Origin: Dehalococcoidia bacterium
Lineage (GTDB): Bacteria > Chloroflexota > Dehalococcoidia > Lucifugimonadales > HRBIN23
Assembly: GCA_025060295.1 (NCBI GenBank)
Contig: JANXCH010000004.1
Span: 1-48,710 of the forward strand
Length of the DNA stretch: 48,710 nucleotides
Direction: 5' to 3'
Position numbers and translations under genes: made by a program. A model generated the notes under the pieces. That model saw only the letters and a program-made list of their open reading frames with translations. It searched no databases and was not told where the DNA came from. Shown here one piece after another: positions 4,835 to 48,710 of the stretch. Numbering within the stretch: the stretch's first letter is position 1; every line of letters starts with the position of its first letter.

Positions 4835-5306
4835 GAGGAGCCTCCAGGGAGGTCTGCTGCCACACCTCAAGGGCAACCTGACGCGCCAAGGAGGGGGCAA
4901 AACCCCGCCGCCTCAGGTAGGCGTACAGACGCCGTAAGAAGGTGGTTCGGGGCAGGCCTTGCAGGCGGGGTGCCCACTGCTGGGCGCAGCGGCGGGCCAG
5001 CACGGCATCGTCGCCCCCCTGCACAGCCTCTTGGGCTATGCGGGGGTGAATGCCCTGCTCCACCAGTTCGCGGGCTATCAGCCAGCGGGCCTTGGGGCGA
5101 TGGCGCTCCCGCTGGGCGGCCCATACCTGGGCAAACCGCCGGTCGTCCAGGTAGCCCAAAGCCTTCAGGCGCTCCACCGCCTCCTCCACGGCGGCGGGAG
5201 AGAAGGTCTGCTCCAACCGCTGGCGTAGGCGCGCTTCGGTGAGGGGGCGTCGGGCCAGCAAGCGAAGGGCTTCGGCTACAGCCGCAGACGGTGTGCCCTC
5301 GGTCAT
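4827..5306 (-). CDS. recX: Regulatory protein RecX
   Basis: A 159-residue, Arg/Leu-rich helical protein with the RecX three-helix repeats: LLARRPLTEARLRQRL, then ALGYLDDRRFAQVW and KARWLIARELVEQGI. RecX binds RecA filaments and modulates recombinase activity. The start is the ATG at 5306, whose ATGA overlaps the stop of the CoA-transferase gene; the longer open frame upstream runs inside that gene and is rejected. No recA is in the window, so this is an unlinked recX translationally coupled to unrelated metabolic genes. Confidence 0.88.
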   Translation of the reverse strand: MTEGTPSAAVAEALRLLARRPLTEARLRQRLEQTFSPAAVEEAVERLKALGYLDDRRFAQVWAAQRERHRPKARWLIARELVEQGIHPRIAQEAVQGGDDAVLARRCAQQWAPRLQGLPRTTFLRRLYAYLRRRGFAPSLARQVALEVWQQTSLEAPRA

Positions 5307-6496
5307 ACCACACCCTCCCGCCGCAAGGCCTCCACCTCGGGGGGCGTCAGCCCCAGCCAAGCCGCCAAGACCTGTGCGGTATGTTCTCCCAAATCGGGGG
5401 CGGAGGTGCGCACGCCCCCCGGCGTGCGGGAGTGGCGTATGGGGGTGTTGGGGTACTTCCACGCCCCGATGCGCGGGTGGGGCAGTTCCACCAACATCTT
5501 GCGGTGCTGGATTTGGGGATCCTGCACCACCTTGTCAATGGTGTTCACCGGCCCGCAGGGGATACCCAACGCCAGCAATTCGTCCAGCCACTCCTGGGTG
5601 GTCTTCTGGCGCATGGCCTCGGAGATGGCAGGCTCCAGGATGTGGTGATGCTGGGTGCGCGACCAGGAGGTCTGGAAACGGGGGTCATCTATCCATTCGG
5701 GATGGCCGATAGCGGCGCAGAATAGGGGCCAGTGGGTCTCGTTGCCACCAAAGATGGCCACCACGATCCACCCATCCTTGGTCGGGAAGGCTTGGAAGGG
5801 GGTGGCCGAGGGGTGGCGTGTGCCCAGGGGACGGGGCACCTCCCCCGTCGCCAGGTAGCGGGCGATGGCGTTCTCCAGAACCGCCACTTGGCAGTCCAGC
5901 ATGCTGATGTCTAGAAACTGCCCTTTTCCGCTCTGCTGGCGCTCATACAAAGCGGAGCAGATGCCCACAGCGGCAAACAGCCCCGCCACGATGTCCCCAT
6001 AGGAGGTGCCGGGGCGCACCGGGGGGCCGTTGGGCTCCCCCGTGATGCTCATCACCCCGCCCATAGCCTGGACGATGACGTCCAAGGCGGGGCGCTGGGC
6101 ATAGGGGCCGTCCTGCCCGAAGCCCGATATGGCGCAGTAAATCAGGCGCGGGTTGCGCTGGGAGAGGGTGTCATAGCCGAGCCCCAGATGAGCCATCGTG
6201 CCGGGAGTGAAGTTCTCCACCAGCACATCGGCCTGCTCCACCAGGCGGAGGAACAGGTCCTTCCCGTAAGGATGCTGCAGGTTGAGGGTGATGCTCTTTT
6301 TGTTGCGATTGAGGGAGAGGAAGTAGGCGCTGACGCCATCCACAAAGGGGCCGGTGCCCCGGGCGGCGTCGCCCGTGCCGGGGCGCTCCACTTTCACCAC
6401 CTCGGCCCCCAGGTCTGCCAAAATCATCGTGCAAAAGGGGCCCGACAGAATCCACGATAGGTCCACCACACGCACGCCAGCAAGGGGGCCAGCCAC
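5303..6496 (-). CDS. Family III CoA-transferase (CaiB/BaiF type)
   Basis: A full-length 397-residue CaiB/BaiF protein. It opens with PLAGVRVVDLSWILSGPF and ADLGAEVVKVERPG, typical of the family. It continues with the conserved N-RNKKSI-LNL stretch and an LLALGIPCGPVNTI segment near the C-terminus. The family moves CoA between organic acids (formyl, succinyl, carnitine, benzylsuccinate and others). The start is GTG at 6496 behind a strong GAGGAGG site. It is the first gene of the minus-strand run CoA-transferase, recX, cyclase, SDR and small ORF. Which acid is used cannot be told from sequence. Confidence 0.92.
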   Translation of the reverse strand: MAGPLAGVRVVDLSWILSGPFCTMILADLGAEVVKVERPGTGDAARGTGPFVDGVSAYFLSLNRNKKSITLNLQHPYGKDLFLRLVEQADVLVENFTPGTMAHLGLGYDTLSQRNPRLIYCAISGFGQDGPYAQRPALDVIVQAMGGVMSITGEPNGPPVRPGTSYGDIVAGLFAAVGICSALYERQQSGKGQFLDISMLDCQVAVLENAIARYLATGEVPRPLGTRHPSATPFQAFPTKDGWIVVAIFGGNETHWPLFCAAIGHPEWIDDPRFQTSWSRTQHHHILEPAISEAMRQKTTQEWLDELLALGIPCGPVNTIDKVVQDPQIQHRKMLVELPHPRIGAWKYPNTPIRHSRTPGGVRTSAPDLGEHTAQVLAAWLGLTPPEVEALRREGVV

Positions 6497-47996: not shown

Positions 47997-48710
47997 TTAT
48001 CCCCCTTTGCGCTCCTGCTCCTGAAGGGCTTTCAGACGCCCCACAAGGTCAAACCGCCCCACCACGGTGAGGAGTTTCTCCACGAACATCTCCGGCGATA
48101 CCGCACCCGTCACTTCGGCGAAGCCGTCGATAATGGTCTTGGGCACCGCCCGCACCTGGTAGGTCTGAGCCAGGTGGGGGAACTCCTCCGCCTCCACCAC
48201 ATCGGCGCGGATGCGGGCGTTTTCCATTGCCACGGCGTGGGCCAACCTGGCCACCTGGGGACAGTGGGGTCAGGTGGGGGTGACGAAGACCTGCAGGTGC
48301 ACCTCCTTGTCTATCTGGCGCACCACCTCCCGCAGGGCGGGACGCAGGGACGATACTCCCCGAGAGAGGGCGAGGATGTCCTCTATCAGGGTGGTGAACT
48401 CGTACCCCGTAGGGAGACCGTAGAACTTGATGTTGTCGTAGGGTTGGTCGTCGGCGCTGAAGGTGAAGCACGGGATACGGTCCACCCTGCGACGGCGGGC
48501 CTCCTCGGCCTGAACGTAGAAGTCCACCACCTCCAGGCGCAGTTTGGGCGAAAGGGAGACCACCTCCTCCAAGACCTGTTGCACCTGGGGGCAGGTGGGG
48601 CATTCCCGCCCCGGCACCAGAAGCAGACCCGCGCTCCGCGAGGTAAACAGGGTGATGGTGATGTCCTTGAGCAGGCTACGGCTGAAGCGCTCCTGCAACA
48701 GGGCCTGGTC
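47997..48710 (-). CDS. Probable selenocysteine-containing protein disulfide oxidoreductase (5' end at window edge)
   Basis: A double thioredoxin-fold protein like thermophile PDO/glutaredoxin-like proteins. Counting from the window edge, domain 1 has Cys37-Pro-Thr-Cys40 (ECPTCPQ) and a cis-proline loop (DRIPCF). Domain 2 has TPT-x-PHC, where position 147 is encoded by TGA (48272-48270) and Cys150 is intact. It ends with a cis-proline loop (VRAVPKT) and runs to 47997. The 110-residue spacing between sites matches known PDOs (Pyrococcus furiosus, Cys35 and Cys146). The frame is otherwise uninterrupted, so I annotate one protein with selenocysteine at position 147. It is open to the edge; TTG at 48698 is possible but a start just outside is likelier. 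The alternative is a nonsense mutation or error turning a Cys codon into TGA. Confidence 0.75.
48237..48254 (-). promoter_or_regulatory. Candidate bacterial SECIS hairpin
   Basis: In the mRNA, GUGGCC-AGGUU-GGCCCAC forms a six-pair stem with one bulged C. The loop begins 24 bases after the first base of the UGA (position 25, UGA = 1-3). E. coli fdhF also has a small hairpin with GGU in its apical loop at about the same distance. Confidence 0.55.
48270..48272 (-). other. In-frame TGA, probable selenocysteine codon
   Basis: The codon replaces the first cysteine of the second redox motif (TPT-U-PHC). Codons on both sides stay in the same frame and encode conserved thioredoxin-fold sequence. Confidence 0.7.

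Follow-up and report, generated by a model that had tools for sequence, protein, structure and literature searches.

A predicted selenocysteine at the second active site of a two-fold protein disulfide oxidoreductase from Dehalococcoidia

An in-frame TGA codon in the gene for a two-fold protein disulfide oxidoreductase (PDO) of Dehalococcoidia (Chloroflexota) is almost certainly read as selenocysteine (Sec), because the full sel machinery is present in the genome and the site is common to relatives. Decoding would proceed through SelB and tRNA-Sec with the help of a hairpin downstream of the codon, and would place a selenol in the UPHC motif of the second active site. The stretch of DNA analysed (48,710 nucleotides, hereafter the window) belongs to a draft genome of 1.61 Mb in 23 contigs, estimated to be 95.7% complete. 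The family, the active sites, the position of the UGA, the Sec machinery, the conservation of the site and the hairpin motif were all computed directly. The features of the region are the following.

47997..48710, minus strand: PDO gene (TIGR02187), read through one TGA; the 5' end (about 7 codons) is cut off at the contig end, and the stop codon is TAA at 47999-47997
48591..48602, minus strand: CPTC motif of the first active site (residues 37-40), with C37 and C40 invariant in 27 homologues
48270..48272, minus strand: TGA as predicted selenocysteine codon (residue 147), where the attacking residue of the UPHC motif in the second active site is expected
48240..48252, minus strand: bacterial SECIS-like hairpin GGCCAGGTTGGCC (GGCC-AGGTT-GGCC), predicted 17 nt 3' of the UGA, with a G-rich apical loop
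46641..47993, minus strand: Peptidase_MA_2-like gene, the downstream neighbour on the same strand and not part of the selenoprotein

Reading frame, active sites and fold

The minus-strand frame 48710-48000 comprises 237 codons and is interrupted by a single stop, the TGA at 48272-48270, before it ends at the TAA. The sequence around this codon reads ...VFVTPT-U-PHCPQVARLAHAV..., which puts the TGA at the first cysteine position of the second CxxC motif (TPT-U-PHC), and some 90 thioredoxin-like residues follow in frame. A preliminary description of this DNA had placed an in-frame TGA at the nucleophilic cysteine of a second CxxC motif, with the CPTC site intact and about 90 residues beyond, and the minus-strand reading confirms each of these points. 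That description gave no strand; the PDO gene lies on the minus strand, and the plus strand is not the coding one. About seven N-terminal residues are absent because the window is the entire contig (C4) and the gene runs off its end. In the closest relative (G001, locus L022; 79% identical) the N-terminus reads MPLLSPR-D, that is, MPLLSPR stands ahead of the aligned start.

The read-through protein matches the NCBIfam family TIGR02187, 'PDO_seleno_TRX', with 224.3 bits against a cut-off of 185, covering positions 5-208 of the 209 in the profile, and Pfam Thioredoxin_3 matches it in two stretches. Two thioredoxin folds are predicted, each with a redox site of its own (CPTC and UPHC), in keeping with membership of the family. 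A profile built from the 27 homologues matched the PDB entries 1a8l, 1j08, 2ywm, 2ayt and 2hls over nearly the whole length, with E-values from 3e-54 to 2e-36. These entries are deposited as protein disulfide oxidoreductases or glutaredoxin-like proteins, and at the level of sequence profiles the match settles homology to PDO structures. The relationship covers archaeal and Aquifex PDOs (1a8l, 1j08, 2ayt/2ywm, 2hls), which presumably carry cysteine at both sites, whereas the window protein has its predicted Sec at the second. The likeness to the amino-terminal domain of AhpF is weaker, with TIGR03140 and TIGR03143 scoring 77-84 bits, far under their cut-offs; unlike AhpF, the window protein has no flavoprotein domain after the thioredoxin part.

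Exchange of selenocysteine and cysteine among homologues

A search of 59 genomes, comprising the genome itself and others of its genus, family and order, returned a match in 26. The codon at the second-site column is TGA in 18 loci from 16 genomes, cysteine in eight and serine in one, with one further locus partial; a wider set of loci holds 30 Sec and 67 Cys forms. The in-frame UGA aligns with Cys or Sec of homologues in both sets, the pattern expected of bacterial selenoproteins, and aligning homologues read through the TGA, a check put forward in the preliminary description, gave the predicted result. The genome itself encodes a paralogue on another contig (L048, C13:15697-16344) with the motif TPT-U-PYC, which is about 46% identical and scores 229 bits against TIGR02187. 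Among named genomes, loci of Dehalococcoidia, SAR202, Thermomicrobium, Acidobacteria, Bacillota and Sulfopaludibacter also show the UxxC form, and those archaeal and Aminicenantes loci that were sampled carry Cys.

Were the TGA a real stop, the gene would be a pseudogene or would yield a truncated product with one domain. TGA does serve as an ordinary stop in the window, where it ends 2 of 21 long open reading frames (for example 5303-6496, with another stop eight codons on), but several observations speak for translation beyond the codon in the PDO gene. Differences between the window and G001 after the TGA amount to 0.19, 0.07 and 0.27 at codon positions one, two and three, and before it third-position changes reach 0.36 against 0.07 at second positions. 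As third-position changes exceed second-position changes after the TGA too, the distal part is still under coding constraint. Further, the TGA falls exactly at the catalytic cysteine in many genomes, and the domain that follows it retains motifs conserved among the homologues, CP and VPKT among them. A genuine stop is therefore very improbable. The recurrence of the TGA in the same column, together with the protein-level constraint after it, indicates that its placement is not due to chance.

An error of sequencing or assembly, with TGC or TGT (Cys) as the true codon, could be suspected because the assembly is a draft, the gene lies at the edge of a contig and some homologues have these very codons. 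However, the same TGA is present in 17 other loci, namely those of 15 other genomes and the paralogue, and the TGA loci share a hairpin motif (see below) that most Cys forms lack. Since the TGA recurs independently in other loci, an error is refuted in practice and we consider its likelihood negligible.

Other differences among the homologues concern the second site and the gene neighbourhood. An altered second site was seen in L040/L076 (one locus, OY282371.1), L062 and L125, in the form of serine (TATSPACP), TPSDTDCP or TPGSEISAG; judged from these motifs, the site may have been lost in some lineages. In the same-genus relative G001, recA precedes the seleno-PDO gene (profile-checked). The two genes adjoin in loci L134, L136 and L138, one of which is the same-genus relative identified by profile, the other two being judged by eye; the neighbours in L139 and L140 look different.

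Machinery for selenocysteine insertion

Searching the rest of the genome for selA, selB, selC and selD had likewise been proposed, and all four were found. Profile searches located selA on contig C9 (563 bits) and selB on contig C20 (343 bits with its neighbour in frame). The selC gene, encoding tRNA-Sec with a UCA anticodon, lies at C22:1370-1458 (72.3 bits), and selD (L050) lies at C23:54384-55304 (380 bits) and carries an in-frame TGA of its own; SelD of this genome is probably a selenoprotein as well. As a separate observation, a thioredoxin match shares the strand of the tRNA-Sec gene and is separated from it by about 33 bases (L001/L013, C22:1370-1791). Among the genomes with a Sec form, selA exceeds the cut-off in 15 of 16, the exception (G027) being 74% complete, and it does so in 6 of the 9 genomes whose PDO forms are all Cys or Ser. 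Genome-wide reassignment of UGA, or its suppression by a Trp, Gly or Cys tRNA, is scarcely credible: while the residue cannot be told from the frame alone, the genome has the complete set of selA, selB, selC and selD, cysteine is the residue that alternates with Sec at the column, and the TGA that normally ends some genes of the window, such as 5303-6496, argues against reassignment throughout.

A conserved hairpin downstream of the UGA

The predicted hairpin at 48252-48240 sits just 3' of the UGA and has a G in its apical loop, as is expected of a bacterial SECIS element. Of the 30 Sec forms, 28 have a stem of three pairs with a G in the loop at this point, compared with 17 of the 67 Cys forms (Fisher p 2e-10); the sequences are related and the test is not phylogeny-corrected, so that Fisher values overstate the evidence. 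Codon choice in the loop is also skewed: AGG or CGT encodes 27 of 28 loop arginines, compared with 101 of 395 at other positions of these genes, and TTG encodes 17 of 21 loop leucines, compared with 64 of 619, both comparisons being uncorrected for relatedness. Folding energy after the UGA showed no significant drop relative to synonymous recodings (mean z -0.62 for Sec and -0.21 for Cys forms, p 0.054); the enrichment is confined to the specific short hairpin and does not extend to overall folding energy. In close relatives, several Cys forms (L028, L029 and L031) retain the stem, which would be expected either from a recent change of Sec to Cys or from constraint by the protein and GC content.

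Proposed mechanism

Translation through the UGA, SelB-dependent insertion of Sec, the selenol chemistry and the redox partner are what we infer from these sequences. SelB and tRNA-Sec would decode the UGA that opens the second CxxC motif as Sec, with insertion directed by the hairpin that lies within the coding sequence directly downstream of the codon. The resulting selenol would most likely be the low-pKa attacking group of the C-terminal UPHC site and would exchange disulfides with substrate proteins. This site could then be recharged by the N-terminal CPTC site, by thioredoxin reductase or by both; a thioredoxin reductase gene (TIGR01292, 381 bits) is present on contig C11 of the same genome, at C11:117231-118130.

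Relation to known selenoproteins and implications

A bacterial selenoprotein family termed 'homolog of AhpF, amino-terminal domain' was reported from Carboxydothermus hydrogenoformans and Symbiobacterium thermophilum (Zhang et al. 2006, PMC1794560). Two reviews, from 2022 (PMC9312934) and 2026 (PMC13188914), link this family to TIGR02187, with the motif UxxC and the example ABB15282.1. Further, Sec forms of the TIGR02187 family were described in Asgard archaea in 2024 (PMC11227280). The window protein shares with the TIGR02187 selenoproteins of Carboxydothermus and others a whole-length match above the cut-off, two predicted thioredoxin folds and a UxxC motif with one Sec, and like them it is a predicted bacterial selenoprotein; it differs in being a member from Chloroflexota.

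The preliminary description had proposed a UxxC selenol-thiol site at the C-terminus of the PDO, and this part stands, backed by the sel genes, the exchange of Sec and Cys and the conserved hairpin. Its suggestion that such a PDO form was undescribed does not hold, given the family TIGR02187 (PDO_seleno_TRX) and the published UxxC motif. The window gene is, as predicted, a real selenoprotein gene whose family has already been catalogued as a selenoprotein family. No enzymology of this predicted family was found in the publications consulted.

The raw sequence alone sufficed for an earlier reader to spot a real selenoprotein, while annotation unaware of Sec would split the PDO gene or lose its second half. 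Tentatively, and with its biochemistry perhaps never measured, a mixed CxxC/UxxC PDO, of which there are two paralogues here, might be a main selenium-dependent disulfide exchanger of a widespread Chloroflexota lineage, with the selenol at the C-terminal site only. The present case adds Chloroflexota examples, and Sec/Cys differences inside one order, to the predicted family.
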